From Strigamia acuminata (taxonomy: Eukaryota; Arthropoda; Chilopoda; Geophilomorpha; Linotaeniidae), in the NCBI GenBank assembly GCA_949358305.1, contig OX442322.1, positions 8,928,001-8,992,000 of the forward strand: a stretch of DNA of 64,000 nt, written 5' to 3'. Made by a program: the position numbers and the translations under genes. The notes beneath the pieces were generated by a model. It made no database searches. It was not told where the DNA came from and saw nothing but the letters and a program-made list of their open reading frames with translations. Below are positions 22,711 to 53,222 of this stretch, in pieces; the first letter of the stretch is position 1; every line of letters begins with the position of its first letter.

Positions 22711-22715
22711 GAATA

Positions 22716-23253: not shown

Positions 23254-23474
23254 ATTCCCCCTATCGATGGAAATAGAATCAGGGGAAAAGCCTATGCAAA
23301 AACTGGAATTACAGTATAATTTACGGGAAAAGATAAATAATAAGGTCGAATCATCGAGCCGGGTACTATCATTGAAAAACACTACGTAAGCCCGAATATT
23401 CCCTCAGAAACTCGATGATCCTCATAATCCGGTATAAGAAATAAAGAATGTCACGATAAGGTCTCGGTAAGAGT

Positions 23475-28478: not shown

Positions 28479-29544
28479 GCTGGAGTAAACTCAGCTCACC
28501 GCACAAAACGCAAAGGCTCAGAGAATGGCGACGGCGATGTCGTAGCACTGCACACAATGAAGCTCTCGGTGACACGAAACGAAGCACTGTCAAAGCGGAT
28601 ATCCGACAAAGGGGAACTGATGCTATAATCAGTTGATAACCCAAAGCAAGTGTCCCCCTAGCGTCCTTTGTGACCACCTGGGGCCGCGGGAATGCTAGGT
28701 GGCGCAGGGCTCAGCCTTGCCTTGGAATACAACAACAGCGGTGGACGGAATGTCCGAAGAGCTGTTGCGAATCTAATAAGGACCCTCTCCAAAAATCTTA
28801 AAACTATCTTAATAATTAACAGAGTTTCACGACAGGGAAGGCGAAAAGGTCGGTGAATCTCTCGCGTAACGTCACGCGAGCTCGTGATAAAGGCACGAGC
28901 GGGTTTTCTCGAAAAACCCGTTTGAAAAACGCAATTTGGATTCGAAAATCCAAATTCTTCTCGAATAAATCGAGGCTCTTCACGAAAATACGCAAAAATC
29001 GTCGAAAAATCGCCGTGTTAATGAGTTCGGCGATACTGTGTACACGCCGGGGTGTAACACAGCGAGAATCGTCTCGTTTCGAGGAATAAATCGTCGTCGG
29101 GACGTTGTCGAAACAAATCGACGCGAAATCTGAAAAAAATAAAAGAATTCGCCTCGAAATTCGCGAGACCGCGGAATTTCGGACGATATTAGGCAGGAAA
29201 AACGATGAAATAGACAACACTGGTCGTCTATAAATGTCGGCAGTACGTCTCGAAACGTCCTCGACACGAATCTGGGCGAAAATTGACGAAACGTCTGCAA
29301 AAATAAATGAATTTGTCTGGAAATCCGCGAATCCCGCGTGATTTTCGACAAAATTAGGCGTCGAATCGTGTAGAAAACGTTGTAGGCAGCCGTGGAACGA
29401 CGGCGACGCGTATCTAACGTCTCCAATACGAAACACGGGGCGAAAATCGTCGTAAACCTACAAATGAACAATTCCGGCGCAAAATTCGCAAATTTTGCGA
29501 ATATTACGTCGAAAAATTAGCAAAACAAATGTGGATTAGCAAGG
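28479..29544 (-). other. Cop2 leader
   Basis: About 1.07 kb, CpG-rich, with many GTCGAAAA-like words as in Cop1's leader. The open frames at 28816-29436 and 28980-29471 overlap each other, have no known domain and look like effects of base composition. Confidence 0.7.
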
Positions 29545-29562
29545 AACCATCCTCTGCTACCA
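29545..29562 (-). other. Cop2 primer-binding site, initiator tRNA-Met
   Basis: The plus strand reads AACCATCCTCTGCTACCA, the same 18 nt as in Cop1, with a 2-nt spacer before the LTR at 29565. Confidence 0.92.
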
Positions 29563-29564
29563 CT

Positions 29565-30102
29565 TGTAGCAGAGGAAAGCGGCGCAGTTCGGTTTTCACA
29601 CCGAAAAAGGAAGCGATAGGCGTGTTTCACACACGTACGAGGCGACGACGATAACGGCAATGCGTACGAGACGGGCGCGCGGCTTAAGGCCGCTTATATG
29701 CGCTGGAGATGGACTAAAAGGTGTTCTAATAATGAACACTAACAACTAAAATAATAAAACATTTAATGGAAATGAAATAACTTACAAATAGGCTCCATTC
29801 TGGAGTTGAGAAAATCACACAGCACAAAGCACTGTGTGCGGCCATGTTGGAAGAAAACAAGAGAGAGTGCGACACACTCTGGTGGCGATGCATGGCATTA
29901 AAAGAACATAATACATTGGGAATTGAATAGAAAGTCTAACGAATGCATGGTGCTGCATGCATAAATACAATCAATGATAATAAATATCGAATATTAACAA
30001 AACAGACTGGATAATTATAAATGTATAAATATACACCGAAATGAAAGATCATTATGTGATTCTATATCACATCGAGACATGTCACGGTCTTATAGACCAA
30101 CA
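29565..30102 (-). repeat. Cop2 5' LTR
   Basis: 538 bp, no visible difference from 22716-23253. It is followed by the GAATA duplication and the A gag frame. Confidence 0.95.
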
Positions 30103-32006
30103 GAATATTCATCCAAATCGTGGTTTGTGTTTCCAATCGAACCATTGGCAATCCAACCAAATATCGTGCGAGACAAACCAAATGTTTTGCTAATTCGTTT
30201 TCTTCCACAGAGAGCAACTTTCCAAAAGTTGTCACCTCCTATTAGGAAGTCAATTTCATCCGTGACTGACGGATGCGGTTCAGCTAATTCCAATCCAAAC
30301 GCCAATATTTTCTTGATAGTTTCGGCGTTTGTCAGTCCACTGACTGTGGGCAACGCTTTAGCTTTTAACGCATCAAATGTAAGCTTTTGATTTCCGTGAC
30401 GTGACTGTAGCTCTACTGGAATTACGTCGTAATTAGCGGGAACCGCATGTTCATCATCCAATCGCTTCATCATGTATGCTACGGATCCCTTCTTTGTCAT
30501 CCGAAGGCATTCGACCAATTTGGTAGATACGTACGACCGGTGACTCCCGGGGTCAAGAAGACCTCGGACGATAACTGGCTCCTTGTTTTTTCGGATTAAT
30601 TGAGCTGAAAATACCATCAACTGAATACTCGATGCAACTGCTAAAGATACATTTGCAGAGACACTGGATTGGGTGGGAATTTCTTCTTTCTTTTCAGCAG
30701 GTTTTTCTTCCCCTTTTTGACAAATTATCGTGTGATGTCGACCACCACATTTCCTGCAACTGAAGCTTACCAAGCAGTCTTTCGCCGAATGATTTCTGCG
30801 GAGGCAATTAAAGCATAAGCGCTTTTGTTTAGCGATTTCTGTTCGTTCCGCAACAGTAAGAGAAGCGTCGCATTTCGCATTATAATGTGATCCGTCACAA
30901 AAAACGCAGACGATTTTTCCCGACCCCATTGGACCGGATGGTTTAGGTTTGTCCTTCCCTGACTGTGAGGTGAAACAGGTTGACATGGTGCCTTTTCGCG
31001 CAAAATCCGACTCTTTCGGTGACTTTTCTGATTTTTCTTGTTTTTTCTTAGATGCTTTTGCTTTCAGAACCGTTTCTTCAGCGAGCTCAGCAATCCGCAG
31101 TTCTTCCGCAACAAAGTCCACAAACTTTAGTACGTTGTCCATGCGACCCTGGTTGGTGCGGTGGTAACGTTTCGCTATGTCAGGTGGAAACTTTTCCAGA
31201 AGGTCAGGCACGAGGAAAAGACCAGCTGTTCGGATAGGTACATGTAGTTTATCGAGCGTTTTTAATGAGGATGAAATCGATGTCAACAATTGCTTGACCG
31301 GCAGGACTGGATACATCTCGTGTACCGCCTTGAGTTCGCGTATCGACTTTACCAACGCATTCTTCTGATTAATTTCAGATCCATAACGACTTCTTAGCTC
31401 TGCCAATGCAAGAGAGTAAGAGTCTTTGGTTAGTGGAAAAGATCCAACGACCTTTTCCGCATCTCCGGTACAGGTTGACTTCAAGTATTGTAGTTTCTCG
31501 ATGTCCGACAATTCATCGTTCTTGTCGACAGCAGCATCGAACATGTCTATATATGACTGGAACTTCAGTGGGCTTCCATCATATTTGGTGATCTCAATCT
31601 TGGGTAGGCGTAAGTTATGCTTCTTTGACGACACCGATGTGAATCCGGTGTTGAACGTCTGTGAAGCAATGGCACTAGCTCCCAAGGAGGTTGAACTGGT
31701 CCGGGCGACTTCCACTCGCTTCTTCAAGTGGTTGACCTTCGATCCAATCTTGTCCAAACGAACGATGAAATCCAGATATTTCTCTCTTGCCAGGTGCGGT
31801 TGGAGAACGGTGAGATCATCTATCAATGTAGCGTGTTGCTCCTGAATTGATTGGGAAATGGCATCCAACTCCCCAAAATCCTGCATGTTTGTTGACGTTC
31901 CCAACAAGTCTTCTATGTTCCCTATCTTCGATTTCCATAAGATTTCCCATTCTTCTATCTGATCTGCGGACGGCGGCGCGACTGGAGTGGTTACTGGAAG
32001 TGACAT
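30103..32006 (-). pseudogene. A gag-protease-kinase gene, N-terminal part, interrupted by Cop2
   Basis: About 634 native codons; the last few residues read before the stop at 30090 come from the Cop2 LTR. Contents: a coiled-coil-like N terminus; the BEL/Pao gag core (DUF1759 type) at about 134-310; three zinc knuckles, C367-C370-H374-C379, C398-C401-H406-C411 and C417-C420-H424-C429; and a DUF1758-type retropepsin with GLLDPGSHRSYV (D485, P486, G487), ending near FGWIANG. The usual D[S/T]G is DPG here and in B2. The reading frame is intact up to the insertion, and the GAATA duplication is in phase, so the gene was probably whole before Cop2 arrived. The rest lies at 21939-22710. Confidence 0.92.
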
Positions 32007-33071
32007 TTTTCAGATAAGTAAACTTTGACAACAGGAATTGATTCTTTGTGTAAAAATAAAATCTCCTTTTCCAGTTGGATCCCAACCCAACGGACGACAC
32101 ACTAAGGGCAAAGCAGAGACACCAACAAACAAAAAGGACGGATTTGACTTACACACTCGAATTTCGACCTCGAAATCCCACGTTCAAGGATCGATGCGAC
32201 AGCGCTTAATTTATGTGAGCTAACTATTGATTTTGGAGATGACAAAGACCCCCAAAACCCTCGAGTCACAATAAATTTCGATACGCTTATCTGTACGGAA
32301 TTGCACTCTGGCGTATTTAAGCGACAATTGCTCTCTGCCTAATGCAGTAATGGCGAGCGAACTTGAGTATTTGCCCAGATTCAATTGTAGATTTAACAAC
32401 CAAATTGCAAACAAAACACTCCTAACTGAATTATTCTCGAAAATCTTTTCTTATTAGACCAAAACTGATCACTTGAATAAGACTTTGCTAAATAAACGAT
32501 TTGTTTTCCCCCAAAGACCTGACTGAATGCTGGACATATACTTAAGAAGATTATATTTAATTTATTTGAGACAAAATTATAAATATAAATCTTTGTTTCA
32601 GATGGACATCGCATTGCGTTGTGTGATGATTGACGACTAGTTGACAGCCAGGAACGTCCGCGACCAGTGGTGCGCTGCGGCTTGAACTCCACACTGAGGA
32701 CGTTGTCCACTCGAAGGAGATCCACTGTCACGACGACACAAAACGGGAAAAGGACGATTTGCTCCAAACAGGCGAATTCACTGCACGGCTCACTGTCACT
32801 TGGCACAAACTCAAGTGCGCACTTGAAGACAGACGGCGCTAAGCAGCTGGACACACCTGATGCACTTGAAACACACCTTTTGGCACTTTCACAAGATACG
32901 TGACCGCAACTGACCGGAAATACAGGCGTACAACGGCGCACGGACGACACGCATACAAAAAGCACTGGTGCTTGACACTTGAAATGAGAGCAAATCATAA
33001 ATCACACAATAAACCTGGCACAGACTCGAATTCGCGATGACACGAAGTATCCTGGTCACTGGGACCAAAAA
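32007..33071 (-). other. A leader with primer site and conserved motif
   Basis: 1.07 kb between the 5' LTR and gag. The primer site lies at about 33050-33067, reading TGGTCCCAGTGACCAGG in element orientation, an imperfect tRNA-His-like match. ACACAACGCAATG is at 32612-32624. One frame is open from 32998 through the motif, with no recognisable domain. Confidence 0.7.
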
Positions 33072-34531
33072 TGTTGCAACTGGCCTGGGCTGGGCCAATT
33101 AAGAAACAAAGGACCTTCTTTTTGACCGCTGATTTTGTATAGTGGCTTTGAAGATTCAATGTCCATCTGTCAGGCATCCAGAACAGCAGGTACTTTGGAG
33201 GAAACAAGGAGTTTTTACTCCTCACTCATTCTGTTAAAATCCACGGGAGTAAAAATAAACATCGTTTAATATCATTGAAAACATGAATAACACAGATACA
33301 ATGCAGCGCGAGAGCAGAAACAAAGCAGTTACACTTAAAACAATAAACTATAACAAGTGCAATCACATAAGCATTGTATAAGGACATATGCACTTGAAAG
33401 TAAGGAAGCCTTAGGTCCCTAAAAAAGGGAGGAAATAAACCATCTGATACAAATAGACTACCGTACAGGGCATCAAGTACATTTGCTTAAGCCTAACAAC
33501 TGAAAACCTACATTAAATGTAATAAATCAGTTTTACAATCAATCTTTAGATGCTATATTCAAGAACCCATTAGAAATGCATTAAATCCAAGTAAATATTC
33601 ATGAAACACAAGAAAAAGAATAAATACAGAGGTTTTCTACCAATCAAATTACAGCTCTACAGTGAGTGCAGTATTTACATCAGAAAGCATTATCATCATG
33701 CAATAAAACTTAATACTATTACATTGCTAATTACACAAATGCTCAATTACTCACAAATACCTCATAAAACCCACAAAAAGGTAATTTTAAATACATCTTT
33801 ACAGAGACACTTAAGCCACGCCCACAGCAATGGCGGACAAGGAGAGAGAGATTGCTCATATGAGCACAAAAGCAATCCAATTAACCTTCCAGGACAAGTG
33901 AGAGGCATTTTAAGGTAACAAATTAATTAATAGGCATACAAACAACTAATATAAGTGGTTTTTAATCCGTGACAGGACCTGGAACATTTCTACCAGCTGT
34001 CCAGAGGCGGACACGCATGGGAGGCGATCATTTGCACGCATTTTGGACGTTTTCACACCTGAAACGAGCGGTGTTGAACTCACATGCGCACAATAGACAC
34101 ACAGGACATTAAACAAGGTAGGAAAATTGCTAATAAACTGATAAAATGCACTGAATGCATTTAAACATTAATAATAACAGTTAGATCTCTTCCAGTCCAC
34201 ATTTGAATTGAGCGAGATGCATCCAGCTTGTCGGACTGCTTACACTAATGAACTGGAAATAGATAACACTCAAGAAACAGGTAAAATTTGCACAAAACGT
34301 TAATAAGTGACAACAAAAACTTACAAAGCAATATTTTGACATTTCAGATAATTAATTCACATGGCAAACGCTTTTATACGGGGAAATATTCAGATAATTG
34401 ACAAATTCGAACTCAAACACACAAGAATATTATTAAAAACGTTTTGTCTGTATTTCCAGGAAATTGCCACATGTATAGATTTTCTTCCTAGCCGGTAAAC
34501 GTTTTGACAACTCCATTTGTTGCTAGCAACA
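33072..34531 (-). repeat. A 5' LTR
   Basis: 1460 bp, visibly the same as 20446-21905. It ends TTGCTAGCAACA against satellite GCAC. Confidence 0.95.
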
Positions 34532-36705
34532 GCACAAACACCAGAAGACCAATGTCTCTGAATGTTCAGAAATAGTGTTTAAACCTTAGTAGAAGGCTCC
34601 AATGTAAGTTTTAGAAACATCCAAGCAATGATTTGGGAGAATAGACTTTTGATCTCATCACAGTTGACTTAGCACAAACACCACAAGACCAATGTCTCTG
34701 AATGTTCAGAAATAGTGTTTAAACCTTAGTAGAAGGCTCCAATGTAAGTTTTAGCAACATCCAAGCAATGATTTGGGAGAATAGACTTTTGATCTCATCA
34801 CAGTTGACTTAGCACAAACACCACAAGTCCAATGTCTCTGAATGTTCAGAAATAGTGTTTAAACCTTAGTAGAAGCCTTCAATGTAAGTTTTAGCAACAT
34901 CCAAGCAATGATTTGCGAGAATAGACTTTTGATCTCATCACAGTTGACTTAGCACAAACACCAGAAGACCAATGTCTCTGAATGTTCAGAAATAGTGTTT
35001 AAACCTTAGTAGAAGGCTCCAATGTAAGTTTTAGAAACATCCAAGCAATGATTTGGGAGAATAGACTTTTGATCTCATCACAGTTGACTTAGCACAAACA
35101 CCACAAGTCCAATGTCTCTGAATGTTCAGAAATAGTGTTTAAACCTTAGTAGAAGCCTTCAATGTAAGTTTTAGCAACATCCAAGCAATGATTTGCGAGA
35201 ATAGACTTTTGATCTCATCACAGTTGACTTAGCACAAACACCACAACACCAATGTCTCTGAATGTTCAGAAATAGTGTTTAAACCTTAGTAGAAGGCTCC
35301 AATGTAAGTTTTAGCAACATCCAAGCAATGATTTGGGAGAATAGACTTTTGATCTCATCACAGTTGACTTAGCACAAACACCAGAAGACCAATGTCTCTG
35401 AATGTTCAGAAATAGTGTTTAAACCTTAGTAGAAGGCTCCAATGTAAGTTTTAGAAACATCCAAGCAATGATTTGGGAGAATAGACTTTTGATCTCATCA
35501 CAGTTGACTTAGCACAAACACCACAAGACCAATGTCTCTGAATGTTCAGAAATAGTGTTTAAACCTTAGTAGAAGGCTCCAATGTAAGTTTTAGCAACAT
35601 CCAAGCAATGATTTGGGAGAATAAACTTTTGATCTCATCACAGTTGACTTAGCACAAACACCAGAAGACCAATGTCTCTGAATGTTCAGAAATAGTGTTT
35701 AAACCTTAGTAGAAGGCTCCAATGTAAGTTTTAGAAACATCCAAGCAATGATTTGGGAGAATAGACTTTTGATCTCATCACAGTTGACTTAGCACAAACA
35801 CCACAAGTCCAATGTCTCTGAATGTTCAGAAATAGTGTTTAAACCTTAGTAGAAGCCTTCAATGTAAGTTTTAGCAACATCCAAGCAATGATTTGCGAGA
35901 ATAGACTTTTGATCTCATCACAGTTGACTTAGCACAAACACCACAACACCAATGTCTCTGAATGTTCAGAAATAGTGTTTAAACCTTAGTAGAAGGCTCC
36001 AATGTAAGTTTTAGCAACATCCAAGCAATGATTTGGGAGAATAGACTTTTGATCTCATCACAGTTGACTTAGCACAAACACCAGAAGACCAATGTCTCTG
36101 AATGTTCAGAAATAGTGTTTAAACCTTAGTAGAAGGCTCCAATGTAAGTTTTAGAAACATCCAAGCAATGATTTGGGAGAATAGACTTTTGATCTCATCA
36201 CAGTTGACTTAGCACAAACACCACAAGACCAATGTCTCTGAATGTTCAGAAATAGTGTTTAAACCTTAGTAGAAGGCTCCAATGTAAGTTTTAGCAACAT
36301 CCAAGCAATGATTTGGGAGAATAGACTTTTGATCTCATCACAGTTGACTTAGCACAAACACCAGAAGACCAATGTCTCTGAATGTTCAGAAATAGTGTTT
36401 AAACCTTAGTAGAAGGCTCCAATGTAAGTTTTAGAAACATCCAAGCAATGATTTGGGAGAATAGACTTTTGATCTCATCACAGTTGACTTAGCACAAACA
36501 CCACAAGACCAATGTCTCTGAATGTTCAGAAATAGTGTTTAAACCTTAGTAGAAGGCTCCAATGTAAGTTTTAGCAACATCCAAGCAATGATTTGGGAGA
36601 ATAGACTTTTGATCTCATCACAGTTGACTTAGCACAAACACCACAAGTCCAATGTCTCTGAATGTTCAGAAATAGTGTTTAAACCTTAGTAGAAGCCTTC
36701 AATGT
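34532..36705. repeat. 140-bp satellite, array 2, with five-monomer higher-order repeat
   Basis: About 15.5 monomers at exact 140-bp steps (for example 34671, 34811, 34951, 35091). With P = CCAGAAGACC/GAAAC, Q = CCACAAGACC/GCAAC, R = CCACAAGTCC/GCCTTC and S = CCACAACACC, the order is P Q R, then P R S P Q twice, then P Q P Q-like monomers and a final R cut by element B. The 700-bp block P-R-S-P-Q also closes array 1. Confidence 0.93.
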
Positions 36706-37123
36706 TGTTGCGAGCAGATACGCAACAAAATTAATATTCAGAAAAGAGAAAGAAACTTTGGTTCATCTGCATGATTCGAATTACCATTCGTGGAATGTTT
36801 ACCTTGTAAGTTGTCGGGGTTTGCTGAATCGTTTCGGTCATTTCGTTTCTTTGAAAGTCTCAATTTCTCGAAGAGTTCGCAACATTGGAAATGAGAGGTG
36901 AGCGCAGTCCGCCATCTTGTGTTAAGTTCGGGCATCGGATTTATCTACAAAGGAAAAGTTAAGGTTTTTAATTTCGGTTCCGGTTAGTTTGAATAATTTT
37001 CAAGAACTTATCTGACACGGTACAGGCAGGCATTGGGTCGCTAATTAAAGGCGATAACGGCGAGGATGGGTTTCAAAGCGAAAAGCGAAGTCGTTGTTGA
37101 TTATCGAGCGGTTTGGTCTGGTC
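36706..37123 (+). repeat. B 5' LTR, first piece
   Basis: 418 bp starting TGTTGCGAGCAGATACGCAACA, which can fold as TGTTGCG...CGCAACA. It is broken at GGTC by B2. The uninterrupted sequence is at 49043-49460 and beyond. Confidence 0.95.
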
Positions 37124-37847
37124 TGTTGCAACTCGCCACTGCCGTGATGCGACGAGTTGTAACGCGGTGGGGAATTATTGGCAAATTTCCCATAGGCCTA
37201 TACTTTGCTTAGCTGAGAGGAGAAGTGTAGTAACTTGAGTTTCTGCCCTTGCTCTTGAAGGAAGCTGCTCCAGGGAGTTTGGGGTTAAATCTCCCTACTC
37301 ACACATGTTGGATGTTGAATAAAATAAAGCTTTGTGTAGAAAAATCCAGATAATGCTTTTAATCATTTCAAAACATTAACATGGAGGCAAATTTAACTTA
37401 ACAACATCTAATTCTTCATAACAAGAGTGTAACAACTTCATAACAACAACAATTCTATAGCAACAACAAACTCATGAGGCACCTAGTGACTAAATTCATA
37501 AATAACATAAGTTAAAGCTTGCATTGTGCCTCATAATAGAGATAAAATCAACTTAAAATTAACAGAAATCATTGGAAAACAAGACTAAAAATTCCTAAAC
37601 CTTGACCTTGTCATTCTAAGAGATAAAATACCTAACAAACATTGTCTTTACTGAAAATTGGCACACAAAAAGACATGTAAAATTCCTATTACAACAGAAA
37701 AAGATTAGATATTTGCTAAATAAATAATACAATTATAAGACCGAAATTAGTAACTCTTCTTTACATTTTCGAACACATAAAATCAAACTACTATCAAATT
37801 GACGAGCAGTTGTGGTCTCTCTTTCCTCCTTTCTGTTGCTCGAAACA
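37124..37847 (-). repeat. B2 3' LTR
   Basis: 724 bp. In element orientation it starts TGTTTCGAGCAACAG and ends GAGTTGCAACA. The 74 bp between it and the stop codon hold a pyrimidine tract and CGGCGGCAATCTC but no polypurine tract. Confidence 0.95.
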
Positions 37848-37921
37848 GAGATTGCCGCCGAAAAGAAAAAAAGGTGAAGAAGAACCTCTTAGCAATCTGA
37901 AAACTTCTCATCCACCTAGGA

Positions 37922-40900
37922 TCAGCTCCCTAATGACTCCTTAAGGTAAGCGCAATTTTTTTTGCGGATCAAACTGGCCACCCATGGAGGTAATCTTCGA
38001 TTCAAAATCGCTAAACTTAAATGTGCCGCTTCATTAATTAGCTTTCTCTTGACTTCTATAGAATTGATTGATTTCTGAAAACAGGTACGACACGTTGGCT
38101 TGTATCTCTCTTCTCCTCCCACAACCTGAACTTGCGTTTCACCCGATATTCGTTTGGTGAACGACGCTTGGTTTCCACAAAAGTGGCATTTGGCATGAAG
38201 TTTGACAATAGTTTCCACTAGTGGAATGAGATTAGATACTGCCTTGAATTCCTGTCTCTTAAAATCACCATTTAAAGCGGCAATTATTACATTCTTTCCT
38301 TCGTTCGCCATTTTGTCGGAAAACGAATCGATGTCTCCGAAAAATTGCCCTTCGTCGATACCTATCGTCTTGACCGACTCCGCAATTTTCTTGATTTCCT
38401 GTAACGACGCGACCCGAACCGCTGGACGTCGTTGTCCGGTGTGGCTAACCATTTCATCTTTACTATATCTAACGTCTGTCAAATGCTTAACAAGCAGGCA
38501 AGAATTTTCTTCTTCATTTCGGATTACATTAAGTAAAGCAGTAGTTTTTCCAGAAAACATTGGGCCAATTACTAAATGTATATTTCCCGTGGCCTTTGTG
38601 ACTGCATTTGATCTTCTGTGCGAATTGGTGAGTTTCTTGCGACTCCATTTCAATATCTTTCTCCATTTACTTAAACCCTTTTCTTCATCTTTTTTGAAAT
38701 TTTTCGGAAATTCTCCTTTCTTTTCCGTAGACTCCAGTGTGTCAGGACTCTGAGAAATCGCCATCTTGCCCGACCTTATCCCTTTAAACGTCCGCTTTCC
38801 ATCCATTTCCAATTCGATGGGGACGTCAGGATGCCGTACCTCCAGCTCGCTAGAGCGGCTCGCGGCAAAACGAGAAGCGATGACGCCTTTTGCTCGTACT
38901 CCACCCTTTTCGCTTTTCTCGTCGGGCATTGATGTGGAATTCGCCTGTCCAAACCCGCCTTTGTCCTTTTTTGAAGTGTTGAAAGTCATCTTCTTTCCAG
39001 AATCGATCGCCATACACGATACATCTCCCAGTGAGATATCGTCTTTGTAGATGGAAGGCTCTTTTGAGTTAATTTGTCCGTTTAAAATCCATCCAAAAAC
39101 TGTTTTCATCATTCCTAAATCTGGACTAATTCTCTTCGTTCCCGCTTGAATTATTTTCCACCATGCTCCGCTTCCGATCAAGACATCTACCTCATCCGAC
39201 ACGGAGGGATGTGGTTCTGCCATCTCAAGATTAAACGACTTGATTTGTTGCAGCGTCTGGTGATCTACCACTCCCTTTATATTGGGAAGTGTGTCGGTAT
39301 CAAGAGCAAATACAGACACTTTCTGCTTGTCGTGACGAGACTGCAACTCGAATCTAAACACGTCATGAGTTGTAGGAACTGGTTCCTTGTTCAGCAGACA
39401 CTGGGTCATGGTGTGATACGTCTCAATCTTGTTTAGGTGTAATTTCTTTGCTAACCGCTTCGTAATATATGAACGATGACTACCCGGATCGAGTAATCCA
39501 CGAACTGGGATTGTTTCGCCACTCTTTCGGACGAACAATGCTGTGAAAACCATTAGCTGGACGTCACTTGAGACCGACAACGAGACGTTGGCGGAGACGT
39601 TCTCTTCTTTGGTATCAGTTGGCTTTTCCGCATGACCTCTGTTACAAATTGAAGAATGGTGTCGACCACCGCATGATCGGCAACAAAATTTTACAGGGCA
39701 GTTACCCACTGTATGGCTTGGTCTCAGGCAATTAAAGCATAGACGTTTTCGCTTAACGATGTCGTATTTCTCCGAAACTTCCAGATTTGCGTCGCAATTA
39801 TTGTTAAAATGATCTCCTTCACAGAAGGCACAGATCAATTTCCGGACTGGACCTGATTTTGGTTTGAATGATTCTTTCGTATTGGACCCGAATGACGTAT
39901 TTTGCGCAACCGCGCAAGATGACATGGTCCCTCGTAATTCTTCTTTTTGCTCTCTAGTTGCTGGTTTCTCACTTTTCTTGGTGACTTTCTGACTGGTAAA
40001 TACGCTATCGTCTGATAATTCTGCTACTCTGACTTCGCTTGCTACAAATTCGAGAAATAAATTAACGTTTTCTACGTTTCCTTTGTAAATCCTATGAAAT
40101 CGTCTTCCCAATTCCGGTGGAAACTTCCGCAATAATTCCGGGATTAGAAATAATCCAGTAGTCGTAACTGGGAACTTCAACTGTTCTAATGTTCGGAAAG
40201 CACCGGTGAGGGACGTCAATAGAGATTTTACCGGCTGGATTGGGTACAAATCTTTAACTGCTTCGGCTTCACGAATTTTCCTCGCCAGAGCGTTCTTTTG
40301 GGCTACTTCTGACCCAAAAAGTCCTTCTAAACTGCTAAGTGCCATTAAATACGAATCGTTAGTAAGTGGGTACGACTTAATCGCCACTTCAGCTTCCCCG
40401 ATACAGCTTGATTTCAGGTATTGAAGTTTTTCGACGTTCGATAACTCGGCATCGGCGTCAACTGTGGTTGAAAACATATCCATGAAGCTCTTATACTCCA
40501 TCGGATTCCCGTCGAATTTCTGCAATGTCAGCTTTGGAAGCTTTGTAGTCTTCCTTGAGATTATCGATGAGTTGTTCAGAAATCCAGAATTCATTAGCGT
40601 ATTTCCGCCTGGATGGGCCCCAAACTTATCCTGCATCTGTTTTGAAAATTTCGTCCTTTGCTTAAGAAGATTGACCTTAGTCCTAATGTCTTCGAGACGT
40701 CTCAAACTAAGCAGGTAATCTGAACGTTCTATCTTGTCTTTAAAGACAGCGAGCTCATCAATAAGGTCACTCAACTGCGCATCTATTGTTGCGTGGAGAG
40801 CTTCAAGCTCACCCCCGTCGAGAACGTTTGCAGATGTCGAGAGCAGATCCTCTGCTCCTTGGGCCTTGGCTTGCCATTGTGTTTCTTTCTCTTCCGCTGC

Positions 40901-40930
40901 TTCCGTGGTCAAACCAGCCGCAGTTGCCAT
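37922..40930 (-). CDS. BEL/Pao gag-protease fused to thymidine kinase
   Basis: 1002 residues, one uninterrupted frame. Order: coiled-coil-like N terminus (about 40-100); BEL/Pao gag core of DUF1759 type (about 130-305); zinc knuckles C367-C370-H374-C379, C398-C401-H406-C411 and C417-C420-H424-C429; retropepsin of DUF1758 type with GLLDPGSHRSY (D481-P482-G483) to FGWILNG (612-618); a charged linker of about 160 residues; and a type II thymidine kinase at about 781-952. The gag would form particles and bind RNA; the kinase would phosphorylate thymidine with ATP to dTMP. BEL/Pao proteins normally continue from protease into reverse transcriptase; here the kinase takes that place. The tail 960-990 (PPWVASLIRKK) is shared with A. 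The first ATG follows a leader of about 1.2 kb. Whether fusion protein or cleaved products act is unknown, and the DPG site may be inactive. Confidence 0.95.
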   Translation of the reverse strand: MATAAGLTTEAAEEKETQWQAKAQGAEDLLSTSANVLDGGELEALHATIDAQLSDLIDELAVFKDKIERSDYLLSLRRLEDIRTKVNLLKQRTKFSKQMQDKFGAHPGGNTLMNSGFLNNSSIISRKTTKLPKLTLQKFDGNPMEYKSFMDMFSTTVDADAELSNVEKLQYLKSSCIGEAEVAIKSYPLTNDSYLMALSSLEGLFGSEVAQKNALARKIREAEAVKDLYPIQPVKSLLTSLTGAFRTLEQLKFPVTTTGLFLIPELLRKFPPELGRRFHRIYKGNVENVNLFLEFVASEVRVAELSDDSVFTSQKVTKKSEKPATREQKEELRGTMSSCAVAQNTSFGSNTKESFKPKSGPVRKLICAFCEGDHFNNNCDANLEVSEKYDIVKRKRLCFNCLRPSHTVGNCPVKFCCRSCGGRHHSSICNRGHAEKPTDTKEENVSANVSLSVSSDVQLMVFTALFVRKSGETIPVRGLLDPGSHRSYITKRLAKKLHLNKIETYHTMTQCLLNKEPVPTTHDVFRFELQSRHDKQKVSVFALDTDTLPNIKGVVDHQTLQQIKSFNLEMAEPHPSVSDEVDVLIGSGAWWKIIQAGTKRISPDLGMMKTVFGWILNGQINSKEPSIYKDDISLGDVSCMAIDSGKKMTFNTSKKDKGGFGQANSTSMPDEKSEKGGVRAKGVIASRFAASRSSELEVRHPDVPIELEMDGKRTFKGIRSGKMAISQSPDTLESTEKKGEFPKNFKKDEEKGLSKWRKILKWSRKKLTNSHRRSNAVTKATGNIHLVIGPMFSGKTTALLNVIRNEEENSCLLVKHLTDVRYSKDEMVSHTGQRRPAVRVASLQEIKKIAESVKTIGIDEGQFFGDIDSFSDKMANEGKNVIIAALNGDFKRQEFKAVSNLIPLVETIVKLHAKCHFCGNQASFTKRISGETQVQVVGGEERYKPTCRTCFQKSINSIEVKRKLINEAAHLSLAILNRRLPPWVASLIRKKNCAYLKESLGS
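38075..38590 (-). other. Thymidine kinase domain within the B2 protein
   Basis: Residues about 781-952. Walker A is GPMFSGKT (789-796). The motif IDEGQFF (858-864) has the catalytic Glu at 860. It is followed by AALNGDFKRQEF (884-895), where family members usually have Asp for Asn887. The zinc pairs are C915-x2-C918 and C947-x2-C950, with the lasso VVGGEERY (936-943) between them. This is the cellular and viral TK1-type (type II) fold, about 170 residues, with every key motif present. The source, host or viral, cannot be decided from the sequence alone. Confidence 0.93.
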
Positions 40931-42099
40931 TTATTCTCGAGAAAGAGAGAATGAGAATAAAAATTCTATTCAACAACTCAATAACTGCGAATTAAATTCC
41001 CACAAATATTCTCCGAACTTCACAGACTCTTACTTATACTTGCTTAACGTTAATTCAAATGCGGTGTGCAAATGAAAAACGACCTCGAAATAAAATGCTA
41101 AACTCAACTCCGGAATACTACAGACAAATTGACTTAACACACTATACGTAATACACTGGGACGGAATTATTGACCGCACAAATAAACTTATCCGCATAAA
41201 TATCTTGATAATTCCCCCAAAATGCACTTAGTTCGAAATTAATAATTAATATCTAACCGCACAACCGAGATAAATAGTTATCTTTTACAATAACACTGCA
41301 CAAAGGAGATAAATAGTTATATTTTACAATAACCCCGCACAAAGAGATAAATAGTTATATTTTACAATAACCCCGCACAAAAAGAGATAATAGCTATAGT
41401 TTATAATAGCGCTGCACAAAAGAGATAATTAGCTATCATATACAATAGCTCCGCACTTAAGAGATAATAACTTGATGTTTAAAATTATTGACATAAAAAA
41501 CCCCTTTTAAACTCCCCAAACACAGCTCGAAATTGGCAGAAACTTCCTTGAAAAATCAGATAAAGAATTAATTTAAATAAATATAATTCTTAAATTCTAA
41601 CAGCAATTGAGTTAAAATTAATCTTGTTCTTTATCATCAGCAGATGAACTTGAAGATTGACATTGCGTTGTGTTTCTCAAATTGTTGACCAGGAAATCGC
41701 TTGCTTGTCTCCTTATGTTGACCGCCACAGTAGAAAGACTCCGAACTCGTTACACTTGACATAAAATCCACTGACGAATCAACTCCCTGACGCCTGCGAA
41801 GGACGACACAGCACAAACACACTTCTGTCGCAATTGGCGACAATAATCCAGTGGAAATAAATCGAAAAACGCGTCGCCACACACTTCACACCACGAAAAT
41901 CGGCACCCCACACTGCTTACTGCGAACTAGATGCCACACACTGCCTCACTGTGAAGTCGGGAACACACACGCAAATCACCGTGAAATTGACGTCACACAC
42001 CTGGCTAAAAATGCAATGACGTGCACTGAAATCCACTGGAAGAACTGGACAAAAATCCTGGTTGGCAACAACAAAATCCTTGGGTCACGGTACCAAAAA
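40931..42099 (-). other. B2 leader with primer site, motif and minisatellite
   Basis: 1.17 kb. The primer site is about 42080-42095, TGGTACCGTGACCCAA in element orientation, one mismatch from the tRNA-His complement over the first 14 nt. ACACAACGCAATG is at 41661-41673. An imperfect tandem repeat occupies 41255-41475. The open frame 41637-41882 runs through the motif and has no known domain. Confidence 0.75.
41255..41475 (-). repeat. Hairpin-forming minisatellite in the B2 leader
   Basis: Five to six imperfect copies of about 38 bp built on GAGATAAATAGTTAT and TTTTACAATAACCCCGCAC. GTTAT and ATAAC within most copies can pair, giving a row of short stems in the genomic RNA. Confidence 0.8.
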
Positions 42100-42823
42100 T
42101 GTTGCAACTCGCCACTGCCGTGATGCGACGAGTTGTAACGCGGTGGGGAATTATTGGCAAATTTCCCATAGGCCTATACTTTGCTTAGCTGAGAGGAGAA
42201 GTGTAGTAACTTGAGTTTCTGCCCTTGCTCTTGAAGGAAGCTGCTCCAGGGAGTTTGGGGTTAAATCTCCCTACTCACACATGTTGGATGTTGAATAAAA
42301 TAAAGCTTTGTGTAGAAAAATCCAGATAATGCTTTTAATCATTTCAAAACATTAACATGGAGGCAAATTTAACTTAACAACATCTAATTCTTCATAACAA
42401 GAGTGTAACAACTTCATAACAACAACAATTCTATAGCAACAACAAACTCATGAGGCACCTAGTGACTAAATTCATAAATAACATAAGTTAAAGCTTGCAT
42501 TGTGCCTCATAATAGAGATAAAATCAACTTAAAATTAACAGAAATCATTGGAAAACAAGACTAAAAATTCCTAAACCTTGACCTTGTCATTCTAAGAGAT
42601 AAAATACCTAACAAACATTGTCTTTACTGAAAATTGGCACACAAAAAGACATGTAAAATTCCTATTACAACAGAAAAAGATTAGATATTTGCTAAATAAA
42701 TAATACAATTATAAGACCGAAATTAGTAACTCTTCTTTACATTTTCGAACACATAAAATCAAACTACTATCAAATTGACGAGCAGTTGTGGTCTCTCTTT
42801 CCTCCTTTCTGTTGCTCGAAACA
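42100..42823 (-). repeat. B2 5' LTR
   Basis: 724 bp, visibly the same as 37124-37847. The GGTC duplication follows at 42824-42827. Confidence 0.95.
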
Positions 42824-42827
42824 GGTC

Positions 42828-44155
42828 GAAGTGCACTCGGAAAGATGTTGTTTTGAAGCTGTAGATTTGAATACATTAGTTTAGAAACCACTCCGGTGAT
42901 TAAATAAATAGCTTTAGTTGTAATTTACCGTGGATTAAAGTCCGATGATTCGGCGTTGGGCCGAGGCGAAGCTTCGTTGCTCACCAAGGAGCGTTGATCG
43001 GCTAGATCCGCCATTAGAAGACAGTTGGTACAACGAGCCTCGTTTTCGATTGAGATTTAATTTGATTCAGAATAAGATTTGTTCGACTTAAGTTTTTATT
43101 GTGTGATTTAATGCGATTTCGAATTGATTAGTTGGTTATTTTTTCGTTGTTTTGTGTTTCGGATAAGATTCAATCGTTTGGTCGGGTGTCACGTGATTTG
43201 GCGCATCGTGCATCTATTCGGTCGAGTTCGGGTTTTATAACTCGCCCGCGAATAGCATTGGGTTTAGTGCGGGCGATGGGAATTTAATTCCGTGCAATGC
43301 AAGGGATTTATTAAATGCGCACAACGAGTGTCGAGGATGCATTATTTGGGTTCTTTATTCGTATTAAGACAGTGGCCATGTTCGGGATGCGAGAATTACG
43401 ATTGATTAGATTAAGTTTTCGTTGACATTGATTAGGCGACGTCTCGTGGCGAAATGTAGCAGTTTTCGGGTTTTCGAGATTTCCATTCAATGTTCGTTGA
43501 GGTTTTAATTTTGAAGGTTTGCACCTTCTTTCATTTCATTTTCGCTGTATTAAATAATCATTAGGGTTTGAGTTATTTATATGCTCGATTTTCGATATTA
43601 AAGATAAGTTTTTTGGTGTAATTTGAACTCTCAACGGCCGTTCTTGTTTTGTTGTACGGAGGCCGTTTTGAGACATTGGCTTTTTGATATATTGTTATCT
43701 ATTTTATTAATAATGCTGTCGTGTTGACGTTTATTGTTGTTAGAGACCGTGACACGAGTTTACACATTGTAAAAACAGTTATAGTTCTGATTTGAACGAT
43801 TAAACATCGGTTTATATTTGTTCGTAAATAAGAACGAGTGTTTCTTTTCGGTTGCACACAAGCGCGAGATTCGAATCTGCGCCATCTTTGATTTATGAAA
43901 GACGAGATTGATATTCGAGCCCGAATATCCGCCAACAGTCATGTTTAAAGCAAAAGCCAGGTTCTCGAGTTTTGGTCGACATGGAGAGGACAATGATGGC
44001 CAAGTCAGAAAACATGATATGCGTTATCAGATGTCAGAATGGTTTCAATCGAGTCGAGTAGTGAAAAGTGCTGTGCGAAGATTTGATCGCTCGAATGTTT
44101 ATTACGAGGTGCGTGAGTTGCCAGTCCTTGCAGCAATCACTGCTTGCTGGCAACA
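42828..44155 (+). repeat. B 5' LTR, second piece
   Basis: 1328 bp from GAAGTGCACTCGG to GCTTGCTGGCAACA, matching 49461-50788. Several small frames on both strands recur in both LTR copies and have no known domain. Confidence 0.93.
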
Positions 44156-44167
44156 TAGCCCTTTTTG

Positions 44168-44191
44168 TGGTGCCGTGGATGACCGGGATTC
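44168..44191 (+). other. B primer-binding site, tRNA-His-like
   Basis: TGGTGCCGTG, then a short insert, then ACCGGGATTCG begin 12 nt after the LTR. This resembles TGGTGCCGTGACCCGGATTC, the tRNA-His 3' complement as I recall it. Inferred. Confidence 0.55.
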
Positions 44192-47100
44192 GTCGGGTAG
44201 ACGAGGAGAGAGCCAGCAACCAGATGAGAATAGAAGTCCCAGGGTCGCAAAAGGAAGCAGCCGGCGTCAACAGAGAAGTGCCCGCACTGATGGGTTGAGG
44301 GCGAAGCGGCAAGCGGTCTCTCGTCGGGCGGTAATCAAGTCGAAGGAGATTTGGGAAAAATACGTCGCGGGAGGTCGGTTGGTCCGAAAGCGTCGGTCGA
44401 GCCGTCGGAAGGGACAATGGCGTCGCGGGACCGGAATGAAGAAGGTTGCGGAAATTAAGCAGTCGGCGTATAAAGAAGGAGGAACGATCGGAACCCTGAA
44501 TCTCGGGCGAGCCTAGAAGTTATACACAACGCAATGACACTAGAAGAGAAGAGTCTTGTGTTTTCTTTTTTCGAATTGTTTATTTGTTTTAAGTTAGTTT
44601 AGAGTTGTTTTAGGATTGTTTTGGGGGTTTTTGTTTCGTTCGGCTAGTGTATGTGTATTGCGGGGTTGTTATGTCGGATTCGATTTGGTGTGCGGTATAT
44701 TGGTAGTCTTAATTTGTGGGGCGTGCTCTGTTTCAGGGCTCAACGAGGGTCGTAAGACACTCTTGCCTAATGAAGCGAGTCATTGAAAAACGCCTTGTAC
44801 AGTTTACTTTAGTGTGTATGATTTTTAGACTAGCATATTTTCGAGTTGTTTCCGACCTGACAATTTCGTGAGCGCCGTTCGATATGGAGTATTTCCGTTA
44901 CGATCTTAATTTTTAAGTGTTGAGTTTTGCGAATCACATTCAAAGTTCGAAGTGTGTCTTTTTGGGGGGATTGATTTCCAATTGCATATGCATAATTAGT
45001 CGGTTTTTTTTGTGAACTGGATTTTCTTTGGAGATTGAAGTTTCTAGTCAGTCCTTTTTTTGTCACGTTGATGAATTAAAGGTAAAAAGCTTTGAGTTAA
45101 ATTAGAGTTTCAATTGCGAGTTTAGAAATTAATTTCCGACGTTTGCGAAAGTTGCATTCAAGCATGAACAAGTCCACGTTAAATAGAACAGGGGCAAGAA
45201 GATAAATTCCCTTTATAGATAAAGACGTGGGTTCCCCCAATCGACAATTTTGAGATTGGTGTGAGTTTTAATTGAAAAGAAAATTTCGAGTCTCTTAAGT
45301 TTGAACGCGGTTGGAATCCGTTTGGGAGTATGCATAATTAAGAAGCTGGACAGCCTTTTAAAGAACCAGAAAAGAGAATTAGCACACCCCAGGTTAAGGG
45401 TCCAACTCGTGAATAGCATAAGAAGTTTTAATGCAAGCTAAGTTTATACGTTAGAGAGGTGATGTGTGGAATTTCGATTCTCTATTCAGTTTTTCGGGAC
45501 GCCGAATAAAAGAAGGAGTTTTGGGTTTCATCATCCGTGGCAATAGAAAGTTATGGTCGACTTCAAGAGGTTTTATTAAAGTATCTAAGCGTTTTGAAGG
45601 AGGTCGAAAGCTAGTTGAATAAAATGATTCGCCACGCGCAAGAATAATTTCAGACTAATGAAGGAGCGAGAGAGTTCGCCATTAGTTGCAAATTGCAGCA
45701 TCGCCTTAGCGGGAGGTCCCAATTGGTCACTTGGATCGAAATTGATATTTCCTCAGGCGGAGAAAGAGCGCAATAAGTTCCGTTGGTGCTGATTCGCAAT
45801 AAATCGAACCAAAGAGAGATAAATCTTATTGTACAGAAAAAGAAAGACGAACGTAAAACCTTTACATTGATTTCCTTTCTGGCAAAGGGCCATTTTGAAA
45901 TAGAAGTTGTTCGTCAGGAATTTTTCCGTGACTCTTTGTCTTTATTTTCAAAGCAACAAGCTACAAGAAGAAAATATTACATTGGTTGTTGGAGATTCCT
46001 TTAGTAGCAAGAAACTTTCTCTTTTGAGCTGTTAACAGCACGGTCAGTCTAATTTAGAAAGCTTGCAATGTAGAAGTCCAGTCGGTTAACAGTTGGTCCG
46101 TCGAGTTTCACTAGCAGAATGCGAGGATAATTGACGCGTGAAACTTTCGCGCTGAATTCACTCCTCAAAAAATGAGAGATAGAAAAAAAGGGGAGAAACT
46201 CGGGAAAGTCTCGAGGTTGCATAATAAAGTTTTAAAGAAGAAAATTCCCCCCTATACAGAAGACAGAATTTAGAGAAGGTTTTAGTTGGTTAACAGTGGT
46301 CCATCAAACCCAAGTACTAGATTAGAGAAAAGGTTTTAGTTGGTTAACAGCGGTCCATCAAACCTAAAGATAGAAATCCATCTTCCTCCTTGTAGAGTAA
46401 GAAAAGGCAACAATCATCAGCTTTCAGCTAATAGAATAAAAAGGGATCGTAAAGTTAAACTGAAAGGATTTTTAAAGCAATCAGTTAGAGAATTAGTCCG
46501 GTGCAAGTTGGTTTGAGGAAGTTGTTGAGTTGGGAAGAGCCAGGTGAAGTCAGCCGAAGAAACAAGGTGACAGTGAAAAGGTTCAGTCGAGAAAAGGAGC
46601 GAATCCCAGTTTATTGAGAATTAAAGACCCCAGAACCAACAGAAAAGAATACAAACCTCTCGTCACTTAGAAAAATAGAAATTAATTTAGTTTATTCTTC
46701 CAGTCCTTTTATACAGCTCTTTATTTAAGAAAATGCAGAGAATTCCTCTCGAGAATTTAGTGATTTTCAAGTTTCGGAAGTTTCCCGATCGATTTCTTTG
46801 AAAGCATAAAAGATCTTCACAGTAGAAATACTTATTCTCCAGGATATTACAGTAAGAACAAGTTTAATAAATCGGGAGCAGATTGAGTTTGGACGTAAGA
46901 ATTTATAATTTCTATTACATTTGAATTCAGGTGTTGGTCAAATATAGAAGTCGGTGTTAGTATTTATGGCATTAGTCAAAACCACATGAGCCGATCTGTT
47001 GAGATATTCATTGCCGCTGGGTGCATCTTAGAAAATAAAGCCTCCCTCCTTAGATAACCTTTAGTTGTGTTTTTTCCTGACAGTTTCAGTATTAGAAAAG

Positions 47101-48412
47101 TTCGCCACTTTATTTCGGGAGATTTCCTGAAAAGTGGATCTACTCCTTGGCGCCGAGTGTGTCAAGATACATGCTGTCGCTTCCTAAATATCAATCCATG
47201 CCATACTTAAATCCTGACTAAATAGAAAAATCCCTTACATATAACATAAGAATGACAGAACGAGATAGATTAGTTTTTCTGTTATAAGTACCTCCTTTTT
47301 CCTTTTTTCCTCTGGAAAGCTCTGATTTAAGGGCAGCCAAAGTAAACCGCCTTTGAACACTGGGAATCTTGAGAATTCTGGACGTTCTCAGAAAAATGAT
47401 TCAATTTGTGAAGTAATGGCTTTGGACTTTCTGTTTGGAAGTTAGCAAATAAGTCCTTCGCATTGCGGCGTTCACTTATGGGTTACATTGTCCTTTTAGG
47501 GTTAGAAAATACATAAAGAAGTAAATAGAATAGAAAACCTTGACCTCTTAAACCTTCATAACAGTTGAAATAGATAATGGGAGTTTCAAGCCATTTAGAT
47601 GAATAAATCGCTTTTCCCCTCGGGATTAGACGAAAATGGAAAGCTCTCCTAATTGATGCAGTTGTTTAGAGCTAAAACGAATGCGGGAATATACCAGGAC
47701 CTGTTCACACCAGCTTATCTAATGTGACAAGGACAGTGCTTTCATACACACATTCAAATATAAAGTCCCTCTACACCCCTTCTCTCTTTATGATTCTAAT
47801 GGTTCTTCGTTTGAATGTTCGATTCTTCGACATGCAAGATGGCAAACACCAATGGGTTGCTCGAATCCCTTAGAGACCTCCAGCCAGAGTTAGCAGGAGT
47901 AGGGACCCGAATAGCAATAGAGCTTCCCTTCTTGTTTCTTTTTTGAGTCGGGAGGGAATTATATGAATATATAAAATAAAATTGGGATTGGAAACGACAA
48001 AATGTGTCCGGAAAAGTCCTGCCGGCCACCGGCGGAGTGCACGCCGTCGGTCGCCGAAGAGGAACGGTCACTAAACCTTTTTGATCAATTTCCTGTTTTC
48101 CTAATCCTAAGATTTTATATTGTGGAAAAATAACAGATAGAAGAGTCCTCATAGCCTCCCTCACTCTTACCTCAAACAATTAACACGGGAAATAATATAC
48201 AGGGTGCTTAATCTAAGCCCAACAACAAGAAACTAACCCATTCATTAGAAAATAGTAGCATGTGGTTTTTACTCTTCACTCATTCTGTTATTAAAATCCG
48301 GTCTTGATAAGGTTTTTCTTTTTTAACAAAGTTGATGGAGTTTTCCAAGGCAGAAATAAGATAAGAAAATATTAGAGATTTACAGAGCTGATAGTAAAGG
48401 TTGTTGTCTAAA

Positions 48413-48613
48413 TCAAGTGAAGTGGATTAGCAAATAAGAGAAGTCCGCTGTTGCTGGGTCCACGGGTTCGGCAATCTTGACTTCCTCTTTTAAGAATTTA
48501 TTAAGACATTCGAGAGTTAACAGAGGACGATTCCGGTTTGTAATAGGAATTTTAAGTAGTCCGGAAGTCGTTGTCTCCGAATAAGAGAAAAAGTAGTCAA
48601 AGAACATCGGCAC
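48413..48613 (-). pseudogene. Inverted gag fragment of A/B2 type inside B
   Basis: In the minus frame TTTSGLLKIP followed by NKFLKEEVKIAEP matches the gag segment TTTGLFLIP...LFLEFVASEVRVAE of B2 (about 256-305), with a deletion between. About 150 bp to the left, 48264-48299 (TTTTTACTCTTCACTCATTC) resembles the A LTR at 20584-20617, in the arrangement LTR then gag expected for a minus-strand A-type element. This looks like a decayed nested copy. Confidence 0.5.
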
Positions 48614-49042
48614 GTGAAGTGGTTATTTGAGCCGTGTCGAGAGTCACAAGTCGTAAGATTACGACGTTCGTTGAATTGAGTTAGATTCTGGAATTTAAAA
48701 AGAGGTGATCAGATTTTCTCAAGAGAAGCGATTAAAAGCTGTTAATCGAAAATAGTTTTGTTTGCATAAATAATAGAGAGTGTCTGTATTTCCTATTCCC
48801 CTCCCTCTTAGGTCCTTACACTCGGTCTCTTGAAAGGAATAGAAAGGACCGAGATGGGAGTCTGAGAGAGGGGATGGGTTGCGGGGTACAGATAAGAGAG
48901 ACGGTTGGTCATGCTAAGCGTCTCCACAACGTCACTTGTGGTAATTAGCGAGGTTAGATGGGCTGTCCTAGTAAAGAGAAGATGTGAATTTATTAGGGAT
49001 AAATTTCCCCCCGCTGTCGTCTTCCTTTTTTGGTGGGAGCGA

Positions 49043-50788
49043 TGTTGCGAGCAGATACGCAACAAAATTAATATTCAGAAAAGAGAAAGAAACTTTGGTT
49101 CATCTGCATGATTCGAATTACCATTCGTGGAATGTTTACCTTGTAAGTTGTCGGGGTTTGCTGAATCGTTTCGGTCATTTCGTTTCTTTGAAAGTCTCAA
49201 TTTCTCGAAGAGTTCGCAACATTGGAAATGAGAGGTGAGCGCAGTCCGCCATCTTGTGTTAAGTTCGGGCATCGGATTTATCTACAAAGGAAAAGTTAAG
49301 GTTTTTAATTTCGGTTCCGGTTAGTTTGAATAATTTTCAAGAACTTATCTGACACGGTACAGGCAGGCATTGGGTCGCTAATTAAAGGCGATAACGGCGA
49401 GGATGGGTTTCAAAGCGAAAAGCGAAGTCGTTGTTGATTATCGAGCGGTTTGGTCTGGTCGAAGTGCACTCGGAAAGATGTTGTTTTGAAGCTGTAGATT
49501 TGAATACATTAGTTTAGAAACCACTCCGGTGATTAAATAAATAGCTTTAGTTGTAATTTACCGTGGATTAAAGTCCGATGATTCGGCGTTGGGCCGAGGC
49601 GAAGCTTCGTTGCTCACCAAGGAGCGTTGATCGGCTAGATCCGCCATTAGAAGACAGTTGGTACAACGAGCCTCGTTTTCGATTGAGATTTAATTTGATT
49701 CAGAATAAGATTTGTTCGACTTAAGTTTTTATTGTGTGATTTAATGCGATTTCGAATTGATTAGTTGGTTATTTTTTCGTTGTTTTGTGTTTCGGATAAG
49801 ATTCAATCGTTTGGTCGGGTGTCACGTGATTTGGCGCATCGTGCATCTATTCGGTCGAGTTCGGGTTTTATAACTCGCCCGCGAATAGCATTGGGTTTAG
49901 TGCGGGCGATGGGAATTTAATTCCGTGCAATGCAAGGGATTTATTAAATGCGCACAACGAGTGTCGAGGATGCATTATTTGGGTTCTTTATTCGTATTAA
50001 GACAGTGGCCATGTTCGGGATGCGAGAATTACGATTGATTAGATTAAGTTTTCGTTGACATTGATTAGGCGACGTCTCGTGGCGAAATGTAGCAGTTTTC
50101 GGGTTTTCGAGATTTCCATTCAATGTTCGTTGAGGTTTTAATTTTGAAGGTTTGCACCTTCTTTCATTTCATTTTCGCTGTATTAAATAATCATTAGGGT
50201 TTGAGTTATTTATATGCTCGATTTTCGATATTAAAGATAAGTTTTTTGGTGTAATTTGAACTCTCAACGGCCGTTCTTGTTTTGTTGTACGGAGGCCGTT
50301 TTGAGACATTGGCTTTTTGATATATTGTTATCTATTTTATTAATAATGCTGTCGTGTTGACGTTTATTGTTGTTAGAGACCGTGACACGAGTTTACACAT
50401 TGTAAAAACAGTTATAGTTCTGATTTGAACGATTAAACATCGGTTTATATTTGTTCGTAAATAAGAACGAGTGTTTCTTTTCGGTTGCACACAAGCGCGA
50501 GATTCGAATCTGCGCCATCTTTGATTTATGAAAGACGAGATTGATATTCGAGCCCGAATATCCGCCAACAGTCATGTTTAAAGCAAAAGCCAGGTTCTCG
50601 AGTTTTGGTCGACATGGAGAGGACAATGATGGCCAAGTCAGAAAACATGATATGCGTTATCAGATGTCAGAATGGTTTCAATCGAGTCGAGTAGTGAAAA
50701 GTGCTGTGCGAAGATTTGATCGCTCGAATGTTTATTACGAGGTGCGTGAGTTGCCAGTCCTTGCAGCAATCACTGCTTGCTGGCAACA
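49043..50788 (+). repeat. B 3' LTR, with empty B2 site
   Basis: 1746 bp. TTTGGTCTGGTCGAAGTGC at about 49450-49468 is continuous here, whereas the 5' copy is split at GGTC by B2. It ends CTGGCAACA at 50788 against satellite ATGT. Confidence 0.96.
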
Positions 50789-52470: not shown

Positions 52471-53222
52471 TGTTGCGAGCACGCGCAACATGGATTTTTG
52501 CTATCGCAATAGCGGATTTGCTTTGATTAATCATTAATTTAAGTTTGTGTTTAGTTAATAGTGCAGCTTAAGTTTTGGCTAAATGTTAAATGAATTTCGT
52601 GTAGTTTGTGACGTGGGAGTTATGTTTTACCTGATTTAAGCTGTCTTTTTTTAGGTAATCTTGTATCTTTTCCTTGATTCTTTGGAGTTTTACTGCTTGG
52701 ATTCGTCCAAAGATTTGCTGTTGTTAGTTCCTAAGTTAGTTTATTTATTTGAAACGCTTTGTCTTAATGTATTACGGTTTTGTGCCTTTTGTAATGATTT
52801 TATACTTGAAACTGTGTATTTTCTTGTATACGCTTTATCATTTTGTCACTAGAGGGACAATTCGCCTCTTGCGAGTGGCAAAGTTGCTCTAATTGTTGTA
52901 GGTTGCGCAGCAACTACACTGTGACTGTTATGTAGATTTCTAGGGTTAAGATATGTAATTTTCTCCTCTCTTTTCTGTGTACTTTTGATAGATATTAACT
53001 TTACATTAAATTCGGTTTGTTTATGTGTTATTTGGCATATTAGTGGTGAGTTCTTCCAGACACTTATTAGGCCACTTTGCAGGGATTTCAAGCAGGATTT
53101 CTCCTGCAATGCATCATCTCTTTTGGAGCTCATCACAAGTTCTAGTAAGTAGGTTTATTTGTTATAAGCTTTTTCTGTTGTCTTCTAGAGTGCCACACGG
53201 CCACAAAGCATTGCTAGAAACA
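52471..53222 (+). repeat. C 5' LTR
   Basis: 752 bp from TGTTGCGAGCACGCGCAACA to CATTGCTAGAAACA. It looks identical to 57112-57863. Confidence 0.95.

Follow-up and report, generated by a model that had tools for sequence, protein, structure and literature searches.

Acute transforming retroviruses carry gag-onc fusions in which a captured cellular gene is present, pol is missing and a helper is needed, and thymidine kinases are often carried by large DNA viruses. In plants, the non-autonomous TR-GAG and LARD elements have two long terminal repeats (LTRs) and either a gag without pol or no frame at all, and lie near pol-bearing relatives; the excerpts of these reports place one such set at centromeres in Coffea and record an observed TR-GAG insertion in Arabidopsis (PMC8704663, PMC5818461). 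In bdelloid rotifers, according to the excerpt of the report, LTR elements have added a dUTPase, a DEDDy exonuclease or a GDSL esterase to gag and pol, either as a third open reading frame (ORF3) or as a domain (PMC5408684). Here we describe an LTR element of BEL/Pao descent in which gag and protease run on into a type II thymidine kinase (TK) within a single frame (gag-TK), found in a window of 64,000 nt from Strigamia acuminata (OX442322.1, 8,928,001-8,992,000 of the forward strand; coordinates below are relative to the window). We know of no LTR retroelement with its own nucleoside kinase, and gag-TK would be the first.

Similar to members of BEL/Pao (Belpaoviridae, taxid 2169562), the gag-TK element has TG..CA LTR ends, a target-site duplication (TSD) of 4-5 bp, a DUF1759 gag, zinc knuckles and a retropepsin-like domain; it differs from them in lacking reverse transcriptase (RT), RNase H and integrase and in having a TK1-type kinase fused behind the protease. 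Unlike the gag-onc viruses, it is an established, vertically inherited, multi-copy family that carries a metabolic enzyme. Compared with TR-GAG and LARD elements as the excerpts present them, families A (the element in the window), B and C have a gag frame without pol, elements D and E have no frame and pol-bearing relatives lie alongside, whereas the clan is here an animal BEL clan, the protease is retained and an enzyme is fused to gag. The acquisition of an enzyme domain is shared with the bdelloid elements, but the excerpt of that report mentions no kinase, and here pol is absent and the enzyme lies within the gag frame (PMC5408684).

The frame spans 37922..40930 on the reverse strand and comprises 1002 codons, ATG through stop, with zero internal stops. 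Translation and Pfam thus bear out the claim of an earlier note that an uninterrupted gag-protease-TK frame of 1002 residues stands in place of pol. Pfam places DUF1759, the BEL/Pao gag domain, at residues 139-282 (E 4.9e-15) and a TK domain at residues 782-951 (E 3.7e-54). The Walker A motif (GPMFSGKT, 789-796), DEGQ (859-862) and both zinc cysteine pairs (at 915 and 947) were found where that note had put them, and the domain has the P-loop, DEGQ, thymidine-site and zinc residues and TK1 fold of type II thymidine kinases (TK1; poxvirus TK), from which it differs in being fused to Gag in a retroelement. In total, 27 of the 29 TK1 residues checked are retained in family A. Two other assignments stood in part. 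Three knuckle-like motifs begin at residues 367, 398 and 417, as expected of three zinc knuckles, but only the one at 398 has the canonical form CX2CX4HX4C. The predicted retropepsin is present as a domain at 475-619 (Asp_protease_2 and DUF1758, both weak and below Pfam cut-offs), but its active-site triplet at 481-483 is D-P-G and not the usual D-T/S-G. The gag-protease part can be aligned with that of a pol-bearing relative, S1, and is 45% identical to that of family C over 637 aa.

The frame is enclosed by identical LTRs on the reverse strand, the 3' LTR at 37124..37847 (the left copy on the forward strand) and the 5' LTR at 42100..42823, with the TSD GGTC at 37120-37123 and 42824-42827. 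A primer-binding site, TGGTACCGTGACCC, read from the sequence and compared with relatives, lies at 42082..42095 (reverse strand), and a 39-bp tandem repeat of 5.4 copies occupies the 5' leader (41257..41469, reverse strand). The stop codon and the 3' LTR are separated by 74 bases, which end in a conserved motif, CGGCGGCAATCTC (37848..37860, reverse strand), presumed to be the plus-strand primer region; it is not polypurine, and similar versions occur in A, B, C and E1-E3. The element is inserted in the left LTR of element D, and the right LTR of D (49043-50788) represents the empty site, with the same sequence and no gag-TK insertion. A BEL RT query had zero matches in the whole window, indicating that pol is absent. 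Two LTRs, a short TSD and a primer-binding site are therefore present as in BEL/Pao, but pol (RT, A17, integrase) was not found between the LTRs, which makes the element a BEL/Pao derivative and not an autonomous member.

No described system has this layout in the collections examined. Searching 5.8 billion proteins with residues 760-1002 gave 3 matches among 978 candidates, and for these no gag domain is listed; residues 1-640 gave 25 matches among 8000 scored in the protein collection, at 21-28% identity and with no TK domain listed for any of them. In viral contigs, a search with six peptides from a single sequence gave 6 pattern matches and no relative, and no TK-carrying LTR element is described in the titles and abstract beginnings of the literature searched. 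The suggestion that a gag-TK LTR element was previously undescribed thus holds for the protein collections, viral contigs and literature examined. The element is of BEL origin, has an enzyme joined to its gag and can be classed as TR-GAG-like: it has LTRs, a gag, no pol and a pol-bearing relative, lineage N, with alike ends (N ends taken from L046).

To assess how widespread the element is, we searched the host genome (237.5 Mb, 157 contigs), with search counts being lower bounds. The gag search scored 92 copies of 1195 candidates, on 19 contigs and with 85 in full-length frames. At least 43 of these were A-like, 38 of them in frames of 991-1002 codons, and at least 49 were B copies, 56-57% identical to A, with 47 in frames of 1009 or 1013 codons. 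The TK search scored 150 matches of 205 candidates, 85 of which lay in frames of 995-1022 codons, one with an internal TGA. In LTR searches (40 of 101 and 40 of 122 candidates scored), neighbouring LTRs were mostly ~5 kb apart, with one pair 12 kb apart. LTR pairs were identical in all four A and B copies compared directly; TSDs of 4-5 bp flank three of four A/B copies, as well as C and S1, and were not clear in L010. Collectively, gag-TK is a recent, multi-copy, pol-less family with dozens of intact copies. The proposal of a real LTR element of this kind therefore stands, with the qualification that it is one among several pol-less BEL families and probably helper-dependent. Two loci (L012 and L028) contain tandem LTR-gagTK-LTR arrays in which adjacent gag-TK units have one LTR in common. 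Between L009 and L010, synonymous divergence is uneven along the frame (0.123 in TK versus 0.041 in gag), a hint of recombination between copies.

The comparison of copies that had been proposed for the kinase, its ratio of non-synonymous to synonymous divergence (dN/dS), revealed constraint. Between B copies, 8 of 21 changes in the kinase are non-synonymous versus 16.4 expected (P 8.5e-5), and the linker and tail of the same pair are neutral. Between A and A', the kinase has a dN/dS of 0.12 at a dS of about 1.1. We consider it very likely that the kinase has catalytic activity and is under selection.

The pol needed by such an element could come from its relatives. Lineage N had 71 matches at 70 loci, 48 with gag-pol frames of at least 1738 codons (one of these with a TAG). 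Two further lineages are pol-bearing, S1 (6 copies, 5 in frames of 1752) and S2 (2 copies). The N primer-binding site TGGTGCCGGTGACCC and LTR end TTTGCAACA, taken from one copy (L046), are similar to TGGTACCGTGACCC and GTTGCAACA of A, and the A primer-binding site is closer to that of N (L046) than to that of S1. Blocks on six contigs (11.7 Mb total) were drawn around the gag-TK and C copies, 89 of 89 of which lie inside by construction. On those contigs, 45 of 51 N copies fall within blocks and the remaining 6 within 0.35 Mb. By contrast, none of the 94 best BEL A17 matches on the six contigs (150 scored of 1068 candidates) is inside a block, with two just outside the C8 block, and S1 and S2 are mostly outside, apart from two S1 copies in the C5 block. 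Because LTRs are identical and blocks are shared, it is very probable that a related element with pol copies and integrates the gag-TK RNA in trans, and similar primer-binding sites and LTR ends together with the shared blocks make N the leading candidate source of the absent pol and probably the helper.

The reading we put forward, at even confidence, is that of a helper-dependent BEL/Pao LTR retrotransposon that has lost pol and has, at the end of its gag-protease frame, an intact kinase of TK1 type that aids reverse transcription. The gag-TK RNA would be packaged in Gag, then copied and integrated by pol supplied in trans by N. Through the fusion, the kinase would be produced one-to-one with Gag and, where host TK1 is low, would raise thymidine monophosphate (dTMP), from which host enzymes would yield the triphosphate (dTTP). 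Raised dTTP could then help reverse transcription of the element's own RNA and perhaps of co-packaged relatives; this chain from kinase to reverse transcription is in our judgement evenly poised. If the kinase does feed reverse transcription, selection could act on a retroelement through its deoxynucleotide (dNTP) supply, the converse of hosts depleting dNTPs. Helper dependence and the sharing of an enzyme between elements can be tested directly here, as many intact recent copies share their satellite blocks with an abundant pol-bearing lineage and with a sister family in which the kinase is dead.

Several observations weigh against this proposal. None of N, C, D and E encodes an intact kinase, yet all have spread, so a kinase is not required by each element, unless they share one. 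The linker between A and A' is mildly constrained too (64 of 95 versus 75.4 expected, P 0.004). The D-P-G protease may be weak, and whether Gag-TK gets cut may depend on it. Finally, S1 LTR starts are also alike, so N is not the sole possible helper. A tentative extension, somewhat less probable than the proposal itself, is a guild in which N would give pol, gag-TK would give Gag and a particle-borne kinase that raises local dTTP, and C, D and E would exploit both.

Among other explanations, an active kinase that serves the whole cell and not the particle, through the general nucleotide pool or repair at insertion, has perhaps one chance in a few, as it accounts for the same kinase conservation; in both families, however, the in-frame Gag fusion would co-localise the two by default unless cut. 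It is rather unlikely that the kinase domain and helical tail act as a protein module for assembly or tethering, with catalysis incidental. TK1 forms tetramers, and family C retains gag-protease, a P-loop remnant and the tail without the catalytic core in 19 of 26 intact 892-codon frames, but the 27 of 29 TK1 residues retained in A, and a kinase constrained while the B tail drifts, argue against such a module. That the kinase is passenger cargo with decay still to come seems improbable: it has decayed in family C, and the dTTP role is a proposal, but purifying selection extends across the A-A' divergence. An assembly join or single chimeric copy, which the earlier note had named as a possible refutation, is ruled out by copy number in the assembly: the 92 gag copies are spread over 19 contigs and fall into two families that have LTR pairs and TSDs.

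We next considered the origin of the kinase. The host TK1 (L042, on C9 near 8.319 Mb) is multi-exon and clusters with mollusc sequences (95/72). The gag-TKs fall into a single clade (97/93), nested in a larger one (98/95) that also holds intronless TKs of 181, 185 and 220 aa from the same genome, suggesting a source shared with these other multiplied TKs. A recent copy of host TK1 is ruled out, as the host gene bears introns and the mobile TKs group together (98/95). A tree uniting mobile and host TKs was not rejected (approximately unbiased test, p 0.082). The TK tree that had been suggested to source the capture thus recovered a shared clade but did not fix the source, and the gag kinase may derive from a host gene long ago or from a foreign source. 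The best identity of the genome's mobile TKs is ~55% to the 148 database proteins compared (among the best 120 of 6675 TK matches listed).

The window also contains a kinase-dead relative. The family C element (20446..34531, reverse strand) has identical LTRs at 20446-21905 and 33072-34531. Its gag-protease (30090-32006, reverse strand) is split from a 3' part with a decayed TK and tail (about 21942-22715, reverse strand) by a Copia element at 22716-30102, which has identical 538-bp LTRs and a 1667-aa frame. In the 3' part, hhalign recognises what is left of a P-loop (probability 67 over 36 columns), and the gag-TK tail is present, with 16 of 32 residues identical to B; DEGQ is absent and there are zero Pfam matches. 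At least 26 C gags were scored in the genome, 19 in intact 892-codon frames. Judged by its sequence, family C is a kinase-dead derivative that has spread nonetheless.

Two further BEL gag-protease families, L040 (2643-5108) and L041 (1779-4469), have LTR pairs 99.7% and 99.4% identical and no pol; their C-terminal parts differ from the kinase, are hydrophobic and are probably membrane-spanning. A, A' and B cluster firmly by gag-protease. A single origin of TK-bearing gag fronts (an A+A'+B+C clade) could not be rejected with 10 rows (p 0.295) but was rejected with 11 rows (p 0.0003); the 11-row set also rejected a clade of all the pol-less families (p 0.0005). Group definitions followed a first tree, and the outcome is unstable between row sets. 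With that instability, family C may carry an S-like front. The D-P-G protease triplet occurs in A, B, C, L014, L040, L041 and one pol-bearing N copy, and D-T-G in S1 and S2; D-P-G as a mark of pol loss is ruled out by that N copy (L010 with L045).

The remaining elements of the window are non-coding or incomplete. Element D (36706..50788, forward strand), which hosts gag-TK, and three elements of the E type, E1 (52471..57863, forward strand, of the same clan, LTRs 52471-53222 and 57112-57863), E2 (6370..12328, reverse strand) and E3 (12478..18636, forward strand), are non-coding. All have an LTR start of the same type as gag-TK, and the motif before the 3' LTR is found in E1-E3, not D. In A, B, C and E1-E3, a motif resembling CGGCCGGCAAYCT replaces the polypurine tract directly before the 3' LTR (37848-37860, 21906-21919, 57097-57111). 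A further BEL element of the clan starts at 60355..64000 (forward strand) and continues beyond the window, with a gag from about 63004 that is 85-91% identical to the L014 gag. Assignment of L014-type gag to lineage N was ruled out, as it shares 48% identity with L045, a piece of N, in the part compared.

Arrays of a 140-bp satellite lie at 34531..36705 (unstranded), 19174-20445, 50787-52470 and 57864-60354. In the genome, this satellite (40 of 1061 candidates scored) is located at C13 8.04-9.37 and C9 0.46-1.43 Mb, among the best 150 of 302 matches listed. The elements are restricted to satellite-rich blocks, a centromeric-type trait, although the blocks themselves were drawn from gag-TK and C copies; the blocks may be centromeric.

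The intronless TKs of 181, 185 and 220 aa (L015-L027) are present in several to dozens of copies outside gag frames. For the 185-aa TK, ~8.3 kb of flank is 99.7% identical between two copies, so carriage on a mobile unit is possible. At L026 (1296-4052), a Copia-type pol frame has a methyl-CpG-binding domain (PF01429, E 6.4e-11) beside RVT_2.
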